The notes below the pieces were generated by a model. The model was given only the letters and a program-made list of their open reading frames with translations. It searched no databases and had not been told where the DNA came from. Positions 3,438-40,934 of a stretch of 41,134 nt of DNA are shown here, piece after piece. Each line of letters opens with the position of its first letter. The stretch's first letter is position 1. The DNA is from Nitrospirota bacterium (lineage in GTDB: Bacteria > Nitrospirota > Thermodesulfovibrionia > UBA6902): NCBI GenBank assembly GCA_016234115.1, contig JACRHD010000060.1:1-41134 (forward strand), given 5' to 3'. A program made the translations under genes and the position numbers.

Positions 3438-4640
3438 TCAGTACTTTCCCTTTAAAATTCTGTTCCAGTAAAGCCAGGGCATGACATACTTTATCAGCAG
3501 CCACATACTGTAACGCTCCTTGGCCGGGTCCAACGGGAAGGTGGGCAGCAGTTTATTGTCATGGTCGAATTCGGCCAGGACGAGTTTGCCGTATCCTGTG
3601 ATAAGCGGGCATGAGGTGTAGCCGTTATACTTATCAGGTAAAGATTTCTTGTCGATGGCGGACAGCAGATTGTCGACCAGGACCGGGGTCTGCTTATGTA
3701 CTGCCGCCCCTGTTTTCGTATCACCCGTATTTGCGACATCTCCCAGACTGAAGATATTTTTATACCGGTTGTGCTGAAGGGTCGCTTTATCGACGTCGAT
3801 CCATCCGAAGGGATCGTCTTTGACCGCAAGCGGGCTGTTCTTGATAAAATCCGGGGCCGCCGCCATCGGCGATACGTGCAGCATATCATATTGGGCCGTG
3901 ACCCGCTCTTTGCTTTCGCCTTTAGTCACTTCGAAGACAGCTTCTTTGGCGTCACCCCTTATTTCAACTAATGTGGACATGTAGGTCACTTTGATGCCAT
4001 ACCGCTTGACTACTTTCAACAGTAATTCATTGATCTCCTTCACTCGCAGCATCCCCGGCTTCCCGGTGAAGAAAGAAATATCCGCTTTGTCCAGTATGCC
4101 CCTTCTTCTGAAATTGTCCGCCGCGAGATACATTATTTTTTGCGGGGCGCCGCCGCATTTATTGAACCCCCCCGGCTGAGTAAATACGGCCTTGCCGCCC
4201 TGAAAGTTCTTAATGCATTCGTAAGTGTAGGGCGCCGTATCGAAGCGATATATCGAGCAGACCCCGTTTTTCCCCAGCGCCTCGGGCAGGCCCTTCACGG
4301 CGTTCCATTTAAGCTGCGCCCCGCAGCAGACGACCAGGAAATCATAAGTGATCGAGTCGCCTGATTTGGTCATAATCATATTGTTATCGGGGTCGAATTT
4401 ATCAGCGCCGTCTTTTAACCATTTCACCCCTGAAGGAATGTAATCGGCCTCGTCCCGGACGGTGCTGTTGATGTCGAAGACCCCCCCGCCCACGAGTGTC
4501 CAGCCCGGCTGGTAGTAATGTTTATCCGAAGGCTCGACGATTGCGACATTAAGAGACGCATTTCTGCGTAACAACTGCGCCGCGACCGAGAGTCCCGCAT
4601 TCCCTCCCCCAATGATGAGGACCTGATAATGTGATTTCAT
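3438..4640 (-). CDS. sqr: Sulfide:quinone oxidoreductase, type II-like
   Basis: 400 residues. N-terminal FAD-binding GGGNAG (residues 11-16), later LGDVANT for the flavin. Two cysteines, C162 in KCGGAPQK and C344 in TSCPLITGYGKLVLAEF, sit in the contexts seen in the type II (mitochondrial SQOR-like) family, where they form the sulfane-sulfur-carrying redox pair. A hydrophobic helical C-terminus (WLLIKYVMPWLYW) fits membrane attachment near the quinone. The start is the Met immediately before the Rossmann fold; the longer frame overlaps a repeat. It should oxidise sulfide and pass a persulfide to an acceptor while reducing quinone. Neighbours tusA and dsrEFH could be the acceptors. Unlike them, it keeps ordinary cysteines. 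Confidence 0.9.
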   Translation of the reverse strand: MKSHYQVLIIGGGNAGLSVAAQLLRRNASLNVAIVEPSDKHYYQPGWTLVGGGVFDINSTVRDEADYIPSGVKWLKDGADKFDPDNNMIMTKSGDSITYDFLVVCCGAQLKWNAVKGLPEALGKNGVCSIYRFDTAPYTYECIKNFQGGKAVFTQPGGFNKCGGAPQKIMYLAADNFRRRGILDKADISFFTGKPGMLRVKEINELLLKVVKRYGIKVTYMSTLVEIRGDAKEAVFEVTKGESKERVTAQYDMLHVSPMAAAPDFIKNSPLAVKDDPFGWIDVDKATLQHNRYKNIFSLGDVANTGDTKTGAAVHKQTPVLVDNLLSAIDKKSLPDKYNGYTSCPLITGYGKLVLAEFDHDNKLLPTFPLDPAKERYSMWLLIKYVMPWLYWNRILKGKY

Positions 4641-4668
4641 GTTTGCACCCTTGACCTTTCCGTTAATA

Positions 4669-4706
4669 GTGTCCGTTGTCCGTGTCAGTCCACGGTTGCC
4701 GGACAC
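4669..4706. repeat. Intergenic palindrome between tusA and sqr
   Basis: GTGTCCG pairs with CGGACAC and, inside, CCGTG pairs with CACGG. It fills the 75-nt gap and could stabilise or attenuate the message between the two genes. Confidence 0.55.
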
Positions 4707-4949: not shown

Positions 4950-4965
4950 TTGTTACCCTCCTTTC

Positions 4966-6168
4966 TTACTTTTTTCCGACTTTTTTCTTTCTGAATTCAA
5001 TCCAGGCCACAAAGAAATAAAAGGCTGTAAGCGCCGACAGTGTAATGATCAGGGCGCCGCCCCACCCGAATTTGTCGGGTAAAAATACAGACGGTCCGTA
5101 AAGCCCGCCTGTCCCGACCTGAGCGCCGTAAATCGGCACCCATAAGCCGGCAACGAGCATTGCGCCCAATACTGCAAACCAGTGCCTGATATATCCCTCG
5201 GCAGACCTGCCGATTATCCCGACTGCTCAGCCGCCTGTTATCACCATGCCGAAACCGAATATCGCCCCCCCGATTATACTGTGCCATCCCAGGGGCAGTA
5301 CGAACATCTCTGCGGACCTGAACCCGTTTGCCTTAATAATCGTAAATCCGACTACCCCGATAGCGAGACTTATCATGAGAGAACGCATGGTCTCATTTTT
5401 CTTTGTAGTAAATATTTCCCTGAAGGCGCCGCAGAGACAAAAAGCGGACCGCTGAATGACAAGACCAAAGGCCGCGCCGAAAAGGATTATCCCTCCGAAG
5501 AGGTTCTTCCCCATCAGAAAATAGATTGATGCCGCGGCAAACAGGACAATCAACATAAAAGTCCCTATCATTGGCTGCCGGGATTTGTATTCTTTCTCTA
5601 CGCCGACGGACGTCTTGGGCAGTATCTTTAATTCAGCTACTAATTTCCGGGCCTTTTTCCGGCCCTGCCACATCAATACCCTGCCGCCGAAATATCCGCC
5701 GATGATCAGTCCCCCCATCATATAGAATCCGCTCAGAGACAGGGACATAATCGCCGAATAAAACCCTCCGATAATGCAGGCGCCGACCATAAAGCTGCCG
5801 ATGCCCATCAGCGCCCCTCCGATAAACCCCTGGAGATAGCCTGCGGCAGTATCTTTTCTGATCTTGAATTGTCTGGTCAACAGCGCTGCCGAAAGAAATC
5901 CCAGGATCAGGCCGAAATTCAGGACACTGATTATGCTTTTATGGGGCAATTCCAGCGAACCCCACGGCGGCTGTATATTCAGTCCGAGGAGCCTGTACGT
6001 CCATATACCCCAGTCTGCCATGGCAGGATAAACTCCGCCTATCGGCATAATGAATAAAAACAGCAATATGTTCAGAAACGCCAATAATACTCCGCCTCTA
6101 AGCTTGGACCACGTCTTACCGAAGTTTTTTTTATAAATATTTTCATACAGGTATTCGGACAGTGTCAT
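4966..6168 (-). CDS. YeeE/YedE-family sulfur (or selenium) compound transporter with Sec314
   Basis: Reading through TGA at 5229-5227 joins two frames into 400 residues, full length for the family, with about ten membrane helices. The internal duplication is visible: GGALMGIGSFMVGACIIGG (C131) in the first half and GGAIFGFGMVITGG-U-AVG in the second. In the thiosulfate transporter YeeE, three pore cysteines are needed, and Sec314 appears to take the place of the last one. C244 and C246 form an additional CLC pair. ATG start with an upstream GGGGG stretch as ribosome site. Next to tusA it resembles YeeE-YeeD (thiosulfate uptake) and YedE-YedF (selenium metabolism). The SECIS-like hairpin is the best of the six. 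Confidence 0.9.
5198..5213 (-). promoter_or_regulatory. Candidate SECIS hairpin, yeeE
   Basis: TCGGC-AGGTCT-GCCGA: perfect 5-bp stem with loop AGGTCT, the same loop as in E. coli fdhF and at nearly the same distance (offset 16 nt from the first base of TGA to the stem). Confidence 0.82.
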
Positions 6169-6200: not shown

Positions 6201-6464
6201 TTAGAATATTCCGACTACCTTATCGCTGTTTGTCATTAAATCAATAAGCTCATGGTAATCGATCGGCTTGCCTGATATCTCATTTTTATCAATGCCTCTC
6301 ATCTGAAGTTCATCGCCAAGCAGGTACAGGCTGCCGTCATTCAGGTCTCTCGACGCATAAACCGCATTTTGCATCAGGCAAATGTCGGCGTTCATATCTT
6401 TTGCCAGCTTGTAGGCCGTCTTAAATTCCTTTGTGTCCGGCGAGCTTGAGATAAGGAACAACAT
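6201..6464 (-). CDS. DsrH/TusB-family sulfur relay protein
   Basis: 87 residues, the usual size for DsrH/TusB. The motif ICLMQNAVYAS in the middle matches the LMQDGVY region around the single conserved cysteine of the family. It is the smallest member of the DsrEFH/TusBCD heterohexamer, which moves persulfide sulfur in the cytoplasm. Gene order dsrE-dsrF-dsrH is that of sulfur oxidisers and of the tus operon. It is 55 nt after dsrF and 32 nt before yeeE. Confidence 0.8.
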   Translation of the reverse strand: MLFLISSSPDTKEFKTAYKLAKDMNADICLMQNAVYASRDLNDGSLYLLGDELQMRGIDKNEISGKPIDYHELIDLMTNSDKVVGIF

Positions 6465-6519
6465 GCTTACCTCCTGTTAGCTGTGTAATCGTCTTTTAAA
6501 ATCTGTGCAATCATTTTCT

Positions 6520-6870
6520 TTAGAAAATCATTACCGCCTGCGCTTCCCTTAATGCCTGTTTCAAAACCGGGCCGTCATCGATCCTGACGCCCTCGACGAG
6601 GTCGTCTTCGTTGAGCTTGTATTCTCTCAGGGAAGCTTTATCGGCATAGATCTCCATTTCCCCTGACAGAAGCTCAAGACTTTCACCAAGACCCGTGAAG
6701 CCTGTATCGCCGGCCTCCTGATTTTTCTTTGCCGTCAAGACGCCGCTGTCTATTAAAAATAATGTAGCCTTATAGTCCGCGCTCGAAGCGCCTCCTGCAT
6801 GCCGCACCGCTTCTGCCGCCTCGACTGTGCCGTAGGGCGATTTTCTTAAGATGACGAGAAGATTATCCAT
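6520..6870 (-). CDS. DsrF/TusC-like DsrE-family protein, cysteine-free
   Basis: 116 residues of the DsrE/TusCD alpha-beta fold. It begins MDNLLVILRKSPYGTVEAAEA, like TusC/DsrF starts, and ends in a hydrophobic strand. It contains no cysteine at all, so it should be a structural partner in the DsrEFH complex and not a sulfur carrier. ATG lies two nt after the dsrE stop, so translation is probably coupled. Confidence 0.78.
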   Translation of the reverse strand: MDNLLVILRKSPYGTVEAAEAVRHAGGASSADYKATLFLIDSGVLTAKKNQEAGDTGFTGLGESLELLSGEMEIYADKASLREYKLNEDDLVEGVRIDDGPVLKQALREAQAVMIF

Positions 6871-6872
6871 AA

Positions 6873-7232
6873 CTACATCCCGAGATTAATAAAAATATCC
6901 GACTCTTTCATTAACGTAAACAGGCCCTTCAGGGCGCCCTTCCCGGCGCCTTCAATATAATTTTCTCCCGCGATACAGCGGAAGTTCACGCAGCCTCCTC
7001 AGAGGTCGACTTTCAGTCCCTTGTCCATGAGGGCCCTGAAACCGTCTGATGCATGAGGCAGTCCTTTTCCTTTCTGTCCTTTAAGAAAGTTATATACGCC
7101 GTCCGCCGAGGCGACAAGGTGAGTTTCGAGCCCTTTATCAAGGGCGGCCCCGGCAAGCTTCATGGCAGTGTACGTATTTTCATAACTGTATGGAGAGGTA
7201 TTCAGAAACAACGTAATTCTTTTTGACATCAT
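6873..7232 (-). CDS. DsrE-family sulfurtransferase with Sec78
   Basis: Reading through TGA at 7001-6999 gives 119 residues. Start ATG (7232) overlaps the arsR stop as ATGA and has a GGAGAGAGGAA ribosome site. The N-terminus (ITLFLNTSPYSYENTYTAMKLAGAAL) is typical of DsrE/TusD. The region KVDL-U-GGC places Sec at residue 78, the number of the active cysteine in E. coli TusD and A. vinosum DsrE as I recall, in a U-G-G-C redox pair with C81. The frame after TGA continues the fold to a TAG, ending IFINLGM. A 6-bp SECIS-like hairpin follows. It should accept or donate sulfane sulfur with TusA and DsrF/DsrH. Confidence 0.9.
6966..6983 (-). promoter_or_regulatory. Candidate SECIS hairpin, dsrE
   Basis: TTCCGC-TGTATC-GCGGGA: 6 base pairs including one G-U, loop TGTATC with a G near its start, 18 nt from the first base of TGA. 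Confidence 0.7.
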
Positions 7233-7570
7233 TTCCTCCTCTCTCCGGGATACTTTCCCTTCTTTGTTACAGGGCAACATTCGGGCGCCGGTAATTCCAG
7301 GGGATAATCTTTCTTCAGGATTTCAAGCAAATCAGGCACCATCGCATTTCTCAGAAAATAGCAGCGCAATCTCCCGTCTACAAAGTAATCAATAAGCCCT
7401 GCAAGTCTTAACGCCGATAGATGCTGAGAGATATTGGATTGTCTCAGTTCGAGAAATTCTTCAAGATCGCTGACGCATTTCACCCCTTTTGTCAGCTCCC
7501 CGAGAATAGCAATTCTTGCAGGGTGGGCTATTAATCTGAGGATATCGATACGATCCGCCACATCTCTCAT
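7229..7570 (-). CDS. ArsR/SmtB-family repressor, SqrR/BigR-like thiol sensor
   Basis: 113 residues from ATG 7570 (115 from ATG 7576). Winged-helix core: HPARIAILGEL, then the recognition helix RQSNISQHLSALRLAGL, then the wing VDGRLRCYFL. Two cysteines, in VKCVSDL and in PECCPV, lie 66 residues apart, the same spacing as the C41-C107 pair of the persulfide sensor SqrR. It heads the sulfur operon and overlaps dsrE. Its likely operator, ATTC-N8-GAAT, covers the operon's -10 box and both candidate start codons. I prefer ATG 7570 because the predicted transcript starts there. It should therefore repress its own operon until sulfide or persulfide oxidises the cysteines. Confidence 0.85.
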   Translation of the reverse strand: MRDVADRIDILRLIAHPARIAILGELTKGVKCVSDLEEFLELRQSNISQHLSALRLAGLIDYFVDGRLRCYFLRNAMVPDLLEILKKDYPLELPAPECCPVTKKGKYPGERRK

Positions 7571-7605
7571 ATTCATATATTAGAATATGTGTATCTAAAT
7601 ATCAA
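7568..7605 (-). promoter_or_regulatory. Promoter and operator of the sulfur operon
   Basis: -35 TTGATA (7605-7600), 17-nt spacer, -10 TAATAT (7582-7577), predicted start at 7570. The 22-bp palindrome CATATTC-N8-GAATATG (7568-7589) holds ATTC-N8-GAAT, the SqrR/BigR-type box, and encloses the -10. Bound ArsR would block polymerase directly. Confidence 0.7.
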
Positions 7606-38236: not shown

Positions 38237-38489
38237 AATGAATCTCTCTGCCGTTGAGGGTATCTTAAATTCTCTCCTCCCTTGACGAGAGAGGATTAAG
38301 GCGGAGGGAAATAAAAACCTCTCAGAATTTTCCTTGACCGTAAGGCACAGGATGAATAAAATAGGGGGGGCAGGCCTACACATTTTACTAAAAGCTATGA
38401 GCAACCGTATGAAAAATAATATCCAGCCTTCTTCTTGACCGCCATCGGGCGGTGCCGGGGTGTGCCGACCGGATCAGGACAAAGCGGGT

Positions 38490-39257
38490 ATGCTGAAATC
38501 CGAAGCGGTTTCTGCAGAGAAGTTTAAGGGAATAAGAGACGCAATAAGAAATAAATATGCCGGGGTTTCTGTTTCGGCTGCCGGGAAGTTTCAATACCCG
38601 ACCGGCAAAGAGGGAGCAACTGCACTCGGATATGATCCTGCTGTTATTAAAAGCGCTGCCCCGGGTCTTCTTGAGTCCTTTTGCGGTATCGGCAATCCTT
38701 TTTCCTTAGGCAGGATTCAGAATGGAGACGTTGTATTGGATCTCGGCTGCGGGGCGGGGTTTGATCTGTTCGTTGCAAGCAGATTAGTCGGCGAGACAGG
38801 CCGGGTCTGTGGAGTAGATTTAACGGAAGATATGGCAGCGCGGGCAAAAAAGAACCTTGCCGGCGCAAACATCTCAAACGTCGAGGTGCGGAAAGTGGAT
38901 TCAGAAATCATACCCTGCGAAGACAATACCTTTGATATCGTCATATCAAACGGCGTCATCAACCTTTCTCCCGGCAAGAATACGTGTTTCAGAGAGATAT
39001 ATCGTGTGCTTAAACCGGGAGGAAGACTTCAGTTTGCAGATGTTGTGCTGGAAAATGCGCTGCCGGCCCATTTGTCGGGAAGTATAGAAGCATGGTCCCA
39101 GTGAATCGGCGGAACGGTCCCTGTAGGGGACCAAATTACACTGCTTGAGGAAGCGGGCTTCGTTGAGATTGAATATATCGGAACGACCGGTTTTCATACA
39201 TCAAGATTTACTGTTGGGGCATTGTTCAGGGCCATAAAACCAAAGTACGATAAATAA
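38490..39257 (+). CDS. ArsM/UbiE-like SAM methyltransferase, selenoprotein (Sec205)
   Basis: Reading through TGA at 39102-39104 gives 255 residues. SAM site VVLDLGCGAGFDLF (about 82-95), GVDLTEDMAARAKKN, acidic SNGVINLSPGKN and FREIYRVLKPGGRLQFADVV. It has the FCGIGNPFSLG motif (C65) upstream, as in arsenite-methyltransferase-like proteins. The TGA lies in EAWSQ-U-IGGTVP; arsenite methyltransferases have a C-[IV]-x-G-A type motif here, and that cysteine binds the metalloid. The frame continues with LLEEAGFVEIEYIG to TAA. A 6-bp SECIS-like hairpin follows. A likely substrate is arsenite, or another thiophilic element such as Se or Te. Followed by SRPBCC, DsbB and DsbA genes. Confidence 0.88.
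39116..39132 (+). promoter_or_regulatory. Candidate SECIS hairpin, methyltransferase
   Basis: GGTCCC-TGTAG-GGGACC: perfect 6-bp stem, 5-nt loop with GU, 14 nt after the first base of TGA. Confidence 0.78.
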
Positions 39258-39280
39258 AATTGTCGCTCCATTGCGGAATT

Positions 39281-39745
39281 GTGAAACTCACAGATCAAAT
39301 CCACGTCAACCGCCCTCCCTCAGCCGTCTGGGCTTTCCTTGTGGACCCGGCGAACATGCCGCGCTGGAACCCCAAGGTGAAGCGCGTATCCCCTTCGTCC
39401 TTTTCATCCCCCGGGCCTGGTTACAGATATGCCATAACATATCAGATGCGCGAGCGCGCGAGGGCCTCGGAGTTCTTAGCTGAATTCGTCCGGTTCGAGC
39501 CCTCTTCAAAACTGGTCATTCGTCTCACCGGCGGCCCCGATTCCCATAACAGGGTCATCGAGGAAATATACGACCTGTCCGAACGTGACGGAGGGACCCT
39601 TCTGACGCAGTCAATAATCATCGTCAATTCAGGTATCAATATATTCTTCAGGTTTCTGATATGGCTGATTCAGAAATGGGGTAAACCCACGGGCAAACGC
39701 TATCTGGAAACCTTGCGGGATATCATTGAGGGGGACATCAAGTGA
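39281..39745 (+). CDS. SRPBCC-family (START-like) protein
   Basis: 154 residues from GTG 39281 (161 from TTG 39260). The START/SRPBCC opening (VNRPPSAVWAFLVDPANMPRWNPKV) and final amphipathic helix (KPTGKRYLETLRDIIEG) are clear. These proteins bind hydrophobic ligands in a deep cavity; the ligand is unknown. It lies 23 nt after the methyltransferase and may hold a methylated or lipophilic product. Confidence 0.8.
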   Translation: MKLTDQIHVNRPPSAVWAFLVDPANMPRWNPKVKRVSPSSFSSPGPGYRYAITYQMRERARASEFLAEFVRFEPSSKLVIRLTGGPDSHNRVIEEIYDLSERDGGTLLTQSIIIVNSGINIFFRFLIWLIQKWGKPTGKRYLETLRDIIEGDIK

Positions 39746-39796: not shown

Positions 39797-40270
39797 ATGC
39801 ACCATTCAGATCAAGCGCCCGGCACAGGCTGGAATCTCCTTTTTATATGCTGGCTGATAGCAGTTACCTCTGCACTGGGGAGCCTGTTTTTCAGCGAGGT
39901 AATGAAATTCGCTCCATGTGTTTTGTGCTGGTATCAGAGGATCTGTTTGTTCCCCCTGGTGTTGATATTGACGGTGGGACTCTTTCCCTTTGATAAAAGC
40001 GTTGTTAAATTCGCCCTTCCATTAGCCATAGCAGGATGGTTCGTCGCATTCTACCATAATCTTCTTTATACCGGGATTATTCCTGAAAGCTTGCAGCCCT
40101 GCAGCAAAGGTGTTTCATGCACGGAGGACTATATCAACCTGTTTGGCATTTTCTCAATTCCTATGTTATCGTTAATGTCATTTTCAGCCATAGCAATATT
40201 ACTATTTATGTTAAAGAGGAGATTTCGAAATGAAGAAGCAGAAAGCAATGAAGAAACAGAAAACGATTGA
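39797..40270 (+). CDS. DsbB/BdbC-family disulfide-forming membrane protein
   Basis: 157 residues, four membrane helices. First redox pair C41-V-L-C44 in CVLCWYQR, the DsbB signature; second pair C102 and C108 in the periplasmic loop (PCSKGVSC). It passes electrons from DsbA to quinone. GGAG site 11 nt ahead of the ATG. Its 3' end overlaps the next gene by 41 nt. Confidence 0.93.
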   Translation: MHHSDQAPGTGWNLLFICWLIAVTSALGSLFFSEVMKFAPCVLCWYQRICLFPLVLILTVGLFPFDKSVVKFALPLAIAGWFVAFYHNLLYTGIIPESLQPCSKGVSCTEDYINLFGIFSIPMLSLMSFSAIAILLFMLKRRFRNEEAESNEETEND

Positions 40271-40934
40271 AAAACAGAAACCGGCGAAAAAACAAAATAT
40301 AGTTTTAATTTCGTCGGTCCTCCTGGTAATCGTGTTTGCGCTCGGCGCTTATTTCTATAAAACCCAGCAGTCGGCGAAGCTGAGCTTTATGGCCAGGGAA
40401 AACGCTTCGACGTTTGTCAGAGAATATTCAATGACGCACGGCGGTGCCGACGCGAAAGTTTACATCGTGGAATTTTTCGACCCCGCTTGTGAAACGTGCA
40501 GAGATTTTTATCCTCTCGTTAAAGATATGATTGCCGCCAATCCCGGCAAAGTGAAGCTTGTTGTCAGATACGCCCCTTTTCATGAAGGCTCGGATCATGT
40601 TGTCAAGATGCTTGAAGCCGCAAGAAAACAGGGAAAGTATTGGGAAGCTCTACAGGTCACGTTCAGTAATCAGCCTTACTGGGCAATCCATCATAAGGCC
40701 CAACCCGAATTACTATGGCAATTTCTTCCACAGGCGGGACTTAATATGGAACAGCTCAGAAGTGATATGAATGATCCTGAAATTGCTAAACGTATCGAGC
40801 AGGACCTTGCGGATGCCGCTGCCCTCAATGTCAGAATGACTCCTGAATTTTTTGTAAACGGCAGGCCCCTTCCGAGCTTCGGTTTCGCCCAATTAAAAGA
40901 TTTGGTTGAAAGTGAGATCAGGGATAATTATTAG
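40230..40934 (+). CDS. Membrane-anchored DsbA-like thiol oxidoreductase
   Basis: 234 residues. A very Lys/Gln-rich N-terminus with repeated KKQK words, one membrane helix (about 23-43), then a thioredoxin-fold domain with C87-E-T-C90 in FFDPACETCRDFYP, an inserted helical region and the cis-Pro loop MTPEFFVNG. It is the periplasmic partner of the DsbB-like protein encoded just upstream. Start has a GAGGAG site inside dsbB. The pair would oxidise cysteines of exported proteins. Confidence 0.92.
   Translation: MKKQKAMKKQKTIEKQKPAKKQNIVLISSVLLVIVFALGAYFYKTQQSAKLSFMARENASTFVREYSMTHGGADAKVYIVEFFDPACETCRDFYPLVKDMIAANPGKVKLVVRYAPFHEGSDHVVKMLEAARKQGKYWEALQVTFSNQPYWAIHHKAQPELLWQFLPQAGLNMEQLRSDMNDPEIAKRIEQDLADAAALNVRMTPEFFVNGRPLPSFGFAQLKDLVESEIRDNY

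Follow-up and report, generated by a model that had tools for sequence, protein, structure and literature searches.

Whether an arsenite methyltransferase (ArsM) can be rebuilt around selenocysteine (Sec) is the question raised by one gene in a 41,134-nt stretch of DNA from a Nitrospirota bacterium, hereafter the window. The original prediction placed the gene at 38490–39257 and described an ArsM-like methyltransferase with Sec at the metalloid-binding position. With TGA read as Sec, this segment is an open 255-aa frame containing a single TGA (39102–39104, residue 205). The same reading continued upstream runs through a further in-frame TGA back to an ATG located 31 codons before the proposed start, and residue 205 becomes residue 236 of a longer protein. 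The relevant features are as follows; related loci are denoted by L numbers.

38397..39257, + strand: whole gene, ATG to TAA, most likely encoding a 286-aa double selenoprotein (Sec14, Sec236), an ArsM-clade SAM methyltransferase (conserved start and N-terminal TGA, 47-row alignment, model, fold)
38397..38399, + strand: start codon ATG, which makes the first TGA codon 14 (start 13 codons before the TGA in 32 of 47 loci)
38436..38438, + strand: in-frame TGA, probable Sec14 in the N-terminal tail PSS-U-PPSGGAGVC (in-frame TGA in 47 of 52 loci; pN/pS)
39102..39104, + strand: in-frame TGA, Sec236 (almost certain) at the CmArsM Cys224 position, motif WSQ-U-IGG (alignment, 39 of 39 orthologs)

The assignment to ArsM-like methyltransferases was borne out by sequence and fold alike. 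In a phmmer search against solved structures ArsM proteins came first, at about 99 bits (5evj, 98.9 bits; CmArsM, 98.8 bits). The AlphaFold2 model, built on a 47-row alignment (A1; 47 of the 52 loci, with L121, L108, L145, L147, and L029 outside) and with Sec modelled as Cys, had a pLDDT of 89.6 and a confident core. Its nearest fold was CmArsM (4fr0, Z 25.5, rmsd 2.1 over 206 aligned residues, 35% identity), followed by 6cx6 (Z 25.0), CrArsM (5evj, Z 23.8), and then a non-ArsM entry (Z 21.0), while further ArsM entries (Z 19.5–20.1) were interleaved with unrelated methyltransferases. In Foldseek, the first 13 rows were ArsM or AS3MT. Among the 25 NCBIfam models listed, none was reached over its cut-off: NF041537 scored 293.7 bits (cut-off 510), NF041536 276.3 (575), NF047649 275.8 (460), and NF008823 210.1 (263), and all four were matched at E ≤1e-5 by 47 of 47 A1 members.

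In the alignment against solved structures, with residues counted on the printed alignment, the residue encoded by the second TGA stands opposite CmArsM Cys224 (WSQ-U-IGG vs. YGE-C-LGG). The claim of Sec at a metalloid-binding residue had been tied to residue 205 lying within the conserved cysteine set; since it occupies the Cys224 position, the claim stands, for this one position only. Of the matches in 295 genomes of the window's phylum, each of the best 17 (E ≤1.1e-71) had a TGA within the frame that matched, and the one ranked next (6e-51) had none; among the 257 genomes in the class of genome G297, all 39 with a match at E ≤1e-55 had the TGA. A scan of genome contigs yielded 11 loci, five of them close orthologs. 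The nearest Cys relatives (L023, L028, and L031) have Cys at this position. The second TGA thus almost certainly encodes Sec. For an arsenite methyltransferase as a verified selenoprotein, PMC9312934 cites Fomenko 2007.

The N-terminal Sec had been missed in the original prediction, and its start at 38490 was not upheld, because both the frame and its conservation reach ATG 38397. An N-terminal in-frame TGA was present in 47 of 52 distinct related loci. The five exceptions were L080, L081, and L082, which are clade members with short N-termini and lack the tail Sec, the outgroup L029, counted here as tail-less, and L108, which lies at a contig edge. An ATG stands exactly 13 codons ahead of this TGA in 32 of 47 loci, the window with ATG 38397 among them, so that Sec is residue 14; the next in-frame ATG, at 38409, would make the TGA codon 10. 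Of 46 chosen starts, 28 have a Shine–Dalgarno-like core ahead of them, compared with 14% of random places. The tail follows the consensus (S/G)(G/S)(G/S/C)-U-(P/A)-P-x-x-x-(A/T)-G-G-(C/R), a GG-U-PP-type motif, in which 45 of 47 loci retain Pro at +2, its third codon position being close to random (entropies of 0.30, 0.25, and 1.97), and 37 of 47 retain Gly at +7. None of the homologs found has Cys at position 14. The protein of the window ends with RAIKPKYDK. One ortholog, L121, has two N-terminal TGAs (GGG-U-GIK and GGG-U-SLP) and is a possible triple selenoprotein.

An annotation pipeline would read the first TGA as a stop, and the start at 38397 itself has no Shine–Dalgarno core; both would suit a short regulatory leader ORF truly terminated by this TGA, with Sec236 as the only Sec. 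However, codons +1 to +10 after the TGA showed a pN/pS of 0.61 in frame compared with 1.19 and 1.22 in the shifted frames (45 loci), indicating that protein-level constraint persists past the TGA in the same frame, and no TAA or TAG lies between the tail and the enzyme in 47 loci. A SECIS-like hairpin also follows the first TGA, and a sister clade carries the same kind of Sec tail at its other end. We therefore consider a leader ORF very unlikely. Taken together, the upstream frame, the conservation of the N-terminal TGA, the codon constraint, and the Shine–Dalgarno signal indicate, by comparative genomics rather than by protein chemistry, that the product is most likely a 286-aa double selenoprotein with U14 and U236.

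Both TGA codons are followed by a candidate hairpin.

38454..38469, + strand: SECIS-like hairpin after the first TGA, four of five consensus pairs forming in the window (stem conservation, 45 loci)
39116..39132, + strand: SECIS-like hairpin after the second TGA, GGTCCC-TGTAG-GGGACC (stem conservation, 52 loci)

The second stem (GGTCCC at 39116–39121 and GGGACC at 39127–39132, enclosing a 5-nt loop) had been called ideal. It is present and kept across the loci, but the window segment alone folds no better than its shuffles (z −0.41), the single-sequence fold pairing through an upstream GGTCCC. Comparison of the loci was more informative: the second stem was paired in 0.97 of cells across 52 loci, with A-U/G-C and C-G/U-A exchanges, while the null maxima were 0.82 in 200 synonymous resamplings and 0.94 in 200 same-residue codon permutations. 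The first stem was paired in 0.78 across 45 loci compared with null maxima of 0.65 and 0.76, respectively, the second margin being narrow; L117 (one-codon gap) and L121 (double tail) were left out of this and the codon test, leaving 45 of 47 rows. The stems were picked as the best ones, and the nulls likewise report their own best stem anywhere, with unchanged maxima. Single-hairpin folding was hardly better than that of shuffles (mean z −0.77 for 47 first sites and −1.10 for 52 second sites), and Rfam gave no match in the window. The genome (G000) has selB over its cut-off, tRNA-Sec (anticodon tca), selA, and selD; its selD (L177, G000:C33:32321-33232) itself contains one in-frame TGA. The codon, Shine–Dalgarno, and hairpin evidence thus supports translation of the first TGA as Sec. 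Two in-frame stops in one gene could in principle mark a pseudogene with two nonsense mutations or a sequencing artefact, but the same two TGA positions recur in dozens of genomes of two phyla, which refutes this explanation for practical purposes.

Identification of the active-site Sec does not make the protein an ordinary ArsM, as seen from the remaining arsenic-site residues.

38682..38684, + strand: Cys96, two residues before the CmArsM Cys72 position (invariant in 47; Cys in 68 of 68 rows of both Sec-tail clades)
38952..38954, + strand: Gly186 at the CmArsM Cys174 position, SNGVINLSP (G in 51 of 51 clade rows; Cys in 19 of 19 conventional ArsMs)

CmArsM binds arsenic by Cys72, Cys174, and Cys224, and its C174A and C224A mutants are inactive while C72A methylates only MAs(III) (excerpt of PMC3877260). 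In the window protein, Cys44 corresponds to G70, Cys72 to I98 (V in most members), and Cys174 to G186. The equivalents of all three are missing in 51 of 51 clade members, which have Val/Ile at the Cys72 and Gly at the Cys174 position and no Cys near the Cys44 position. Instead, Cys is found at position 96 in 51 of 51 clade rows and in none of the 19 conventional ArsMs (8 Sec-type, 11 Cys-type), all of which retain the equivalents of Cys72 and Cys174. The sister set, comprising 17 rows between L156 and L175, shows the same swap, with Cys72 and Cys174 lost and Cys96 present, and four outgroup rows (L023, L028, L029, and L031) show the cysteine losses too but have Ala at 96. Thus, of the four conserved ArsM cysteines a single equivalent, that of Cys224, survives, and it does so as Sec; an arsM survey required at least three of the four (PMC5552862).

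In a tree of 91 rows, obtained by a quick search without bootstrap and with L157, L172, L026, L140, and a few others kept outside by a motif filter, the window's clade (51 rows) had an SH-aLRT of 99 and adjoined a clade of C-tail and fusion proteins (16 rows, SH-aLRT 86), with L170 beside both; the conventional Sec-ArsMs grouped apart in a clade of their own (SH-aLRT 99). These proteins (L136–L139 and L141–L144), which have Sec at the Cys224 position but retain the other cysteines, occur in relatives in the window's phylum. Their existence, the alignment, and the fold agree with the model first proposed, an ordinary ArsM in which Sec replaces one arsenic-binding Cys for higher affinity. The missing C44, C72, and C174 equivalents, the score of 210 bits against the arsenite methyltransferase cut-off of 263, the second Sec, and the separate clade of the true Sec-ArsMs speak against it, and this model was rejected as unlikely. 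As Cys44, Cys72, and Cys174 are gone, "ArsM with Sec for Cys" is an inadequate description, and because loss of Cys174 abolishes CmArsM activity, Gly186 argues against a classical arsenite enzyme. Judged from these residues, arsenite methylation by the classical mechanism appears doubtful.

The neighbourhood of the gene was also inspected.

39260..39745, + strand: SRPBCC/Polyketide_cyc2 protein (PF10604; not next to the gene in the 51 other loci)
39797..40270, + strand: DsbB-like disulfide oxidoreductase (not conserved nearby)
40230..40934, + strand: DsbA-like thioredoxin-fold protein (not conserved nearby)

The genes forming what had been seen as an unusual set with an SRPBCC protein and a DsbA/DsbB pair are indeed there, but they adjoin the gene in none of the 51 other loci (three of which have less than 700 nt of downstream flank), so the arrangement is local to this genome and was rejected as a functional unit. 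The commonest neighbours, named from their sequences, were a PEPCK-like protein (5 loci), TVP38/DedA-like proteins (4), and CopA-like ATPases (4); no conserved ars or metal gene and no clear context clue emerged across the related loci. The genome also holds two conventional Cys-type ArsMs.

Elsewhere in the window, a PrdB-like gene (D-proline/glycine reductase selenoprotein B family; 1753-2508, − strand) has an in-frame TGA as residue 159 (TPT-U-IICNQ); at 115 bits it falls short of the TIGR04483 cut-off (300). A YedE/TsuA-like sulfur or selenium transporter (about 4960-6168, − strand) passes a TGA as residue 314 (ITGG-U-AVGIIG) and ends with TAA after about 400 residues, which adds a third selenoprotein gene candidate to the window. 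In the regions 3438-4706 and 6201-7576 (both − strand), beside this transporter, lie TusB- and TusC-like genes, an ArsR/SmtB regulator, and a protein resembling the "type III sulfide quinone reductase, selenoprotein subtype" model, at 215.7 bits where 525 is the cut-off.

The invariant chalcogen residues of the clade are Cys96 and Sec236, with Sec14 in most members. From these we propose a double-Sec ArsM-clade enzyme with a three-coordinate metalloid site, in which Sec14 would also act as a resolving selenol; on sequence grounds, we give this proposal about even chances. The Gly/Pro-rich flexible N-terminal tail would fold onto the pocket and bring Sec14 to Cys96 and Sec236, and the three residues would together bind a soft metalloid, most likely As(III), with Sb, Te, Bi, or Hg as possible alternatives. 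After methyl transfer the mobile Sec14 could resolve the site through a Sec14–Sec236 diselenide or a selenenylsulfide with Cys96, and thioredoxin-type reductants would then re-reduce the enzyme. ArsM uses a disulfide relay, to which this role of Sec14 can be likened. In the AlphaFold2 model the tail is mostly disordered (pLDDT < 50 for residues 1–10 and 16–32); residues 11–15 around Sec14 are absent from the listed low-confidence segments while both flanks are included, which may be a weak hint of docking.

More tentatively, the binding site may have been rebuilt from selenium, the lost cysteines being replaced by the mobile Sec tail and Cys96 to give a Sec/Cys/Sec site. As the same kind of Sec tail is found at opposite ends, or in fused domains, of proteins in sister lineages, the tail would represent a transferable selenol arm, which may either have moved between the ends or have arisen twice.

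Gly186, the two conventional ArsMs in the genome, the lack of ars or metal neighbours, the disordered tail, and the three tail-less members all weigh against the proposed metalloid site, as do the narrow margin of the first stem over its stricter null and the lack of a Cys homolog at position 14. The same two-Sec protein might instead methylate something other than a metalloid, for instance hydrogen sulfide, hydrogen selenide, a small thiol, or an organic compound, with Sec14, Cys96, and Sec236 serving as a redox switch or trap. Two of the three arsenic ligands are lost in 51 of 51 members, no arsenic gene context is seen, ordinary ArsMs are already encoded in the genome, and Gly186 may open the pocket beside Sec236. 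Nevertheless, Sec236 lies exactly at an ArsM ligand position, which is occupied by Cys in L023, L028, and L031, and NCBI groups the tail-bearing Sec relatives, by name only, with arsenite methyltransferases. A non-metalloid substrate is accordingly a possibility that we take seriously without favouring it.

Whichever the substrate, gene finders would trim this protein at both ends, and dozens of Nitrospirota and Desulfobacterota genomes therefore probably carry mis-annotated fragments of it. If the second Sec is real, the family provides a natural test of a mobile selenol beside a methyltransferase active site, in metalloid binding, delivery, or re-reduction. It also opens the question of whether metalloid methylation in anaerobic bacteria involves enzymes passed over by an arsM survey that required at least three of four conserved cysteines (PMC5552862).

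Among known systems, the double selenoproteins of the methyltransferase/UXPK-star type (NF047649) are like the window protein in their domain, U-x-G-G Sec motif, Cys96, and Gly186, and they also carry the second Sec on a flexible tail, where it is preceded by glycines and followed two residues later by Pro (45 of 47 N-tails, four of five C-tails). In contrast, their Sec tail is at the C-terminus (U-x-P-K-stop) and not at the N-terminus, and the two groups are separate neighbouring clades; five C-tail proteins of the sister clade, of the U-x-P-K kind, reached 488–522 bits, over the NF047649 cut-off (460) and far from the 275.8 bits of the window protein. By analogy, the role of Sec14 may be like that of the C-terminal Sec tail of UXPK-star. 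Over the methyltransferase domain, the HMMs matched best were those of the ArsM/AhpD (NF041537) and ArsM/DUF2284 (NF041536) selenoproteins (294 and 276 bits), which have Sec at the same active-site position, but the window protein has neither an AhpD nor a DUF2284 domain, its match to NF041537 stops at profile position 250 of 345, and it is far under both cut-offs (510 and 575). An NF041537 search of 395 genomes found relatives (16 at E ≤1e-88, four over the cut-off) that include AhpD-fusion-model proteins and proteins ending in CEPGG-T-U-KPK, CPPGG-A-U-EPK, CAPGG-A-U-APK, and similar motifs. Long ArsM-type proteins (L161, L162, and L173) contain repeated PGGG-U-P linkers that hold two or three Sec, so that each protein may have three or four Sec in all; from their sequences, the longer relatives with several such repeats were taken for DUF2284 fusions.

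ArsM/AS3MT enzymes (CmArsM 4fr0, PRK11873) share the fold and, as Cys or Sec, the Sec236 position, but the window protein has an extra N-terminal Sec tail, a much shorter C-terminus than CmArsM, and a score (210.1 bits) below the NF008823 (PRK11873) cut-off. TtArsM of Thermus, an arsenite methyltransferase with one Cys and two His as ligands, sets a precedent that non-canonical ligands suffice, although its ligands differ from those proposed here and no Sec is reported in the excerpt of its description (PMC8649762). The methyltransferase-domain double selenoprotein MduS, listed in the excerpt of PMC13188914 and compared by description only, fits in having two Sec, but its CxxU motif is absent at both Sec14 and Sec236. 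The same excerpt lists the UXPK-star, AhpD, and DUF2284 double selenoproteins, UXPK-star being from Haft & Tolstoy 2025. An arsenite methyltransferase with the motif UxxG (WP_011987699.1) is named among experimentally verified selenoproteins in the excerpts of PMC9312934 and PMC13188914, thus Sec in place of Cys224 has long been on record and is not new. The literature search returned no description of an N-terminal Sec tail in an ArsM-like family; Haft & Tolstoy 2025, which lay outside it, may describe one, for example, as MduS. Since Sec at the Cys224 position and tail-type double selenoproteins are already on record in these sources, what seems to be new here, as far as the sequences indicate, is the form of the family that carries its Sec tail at the N-terminus.
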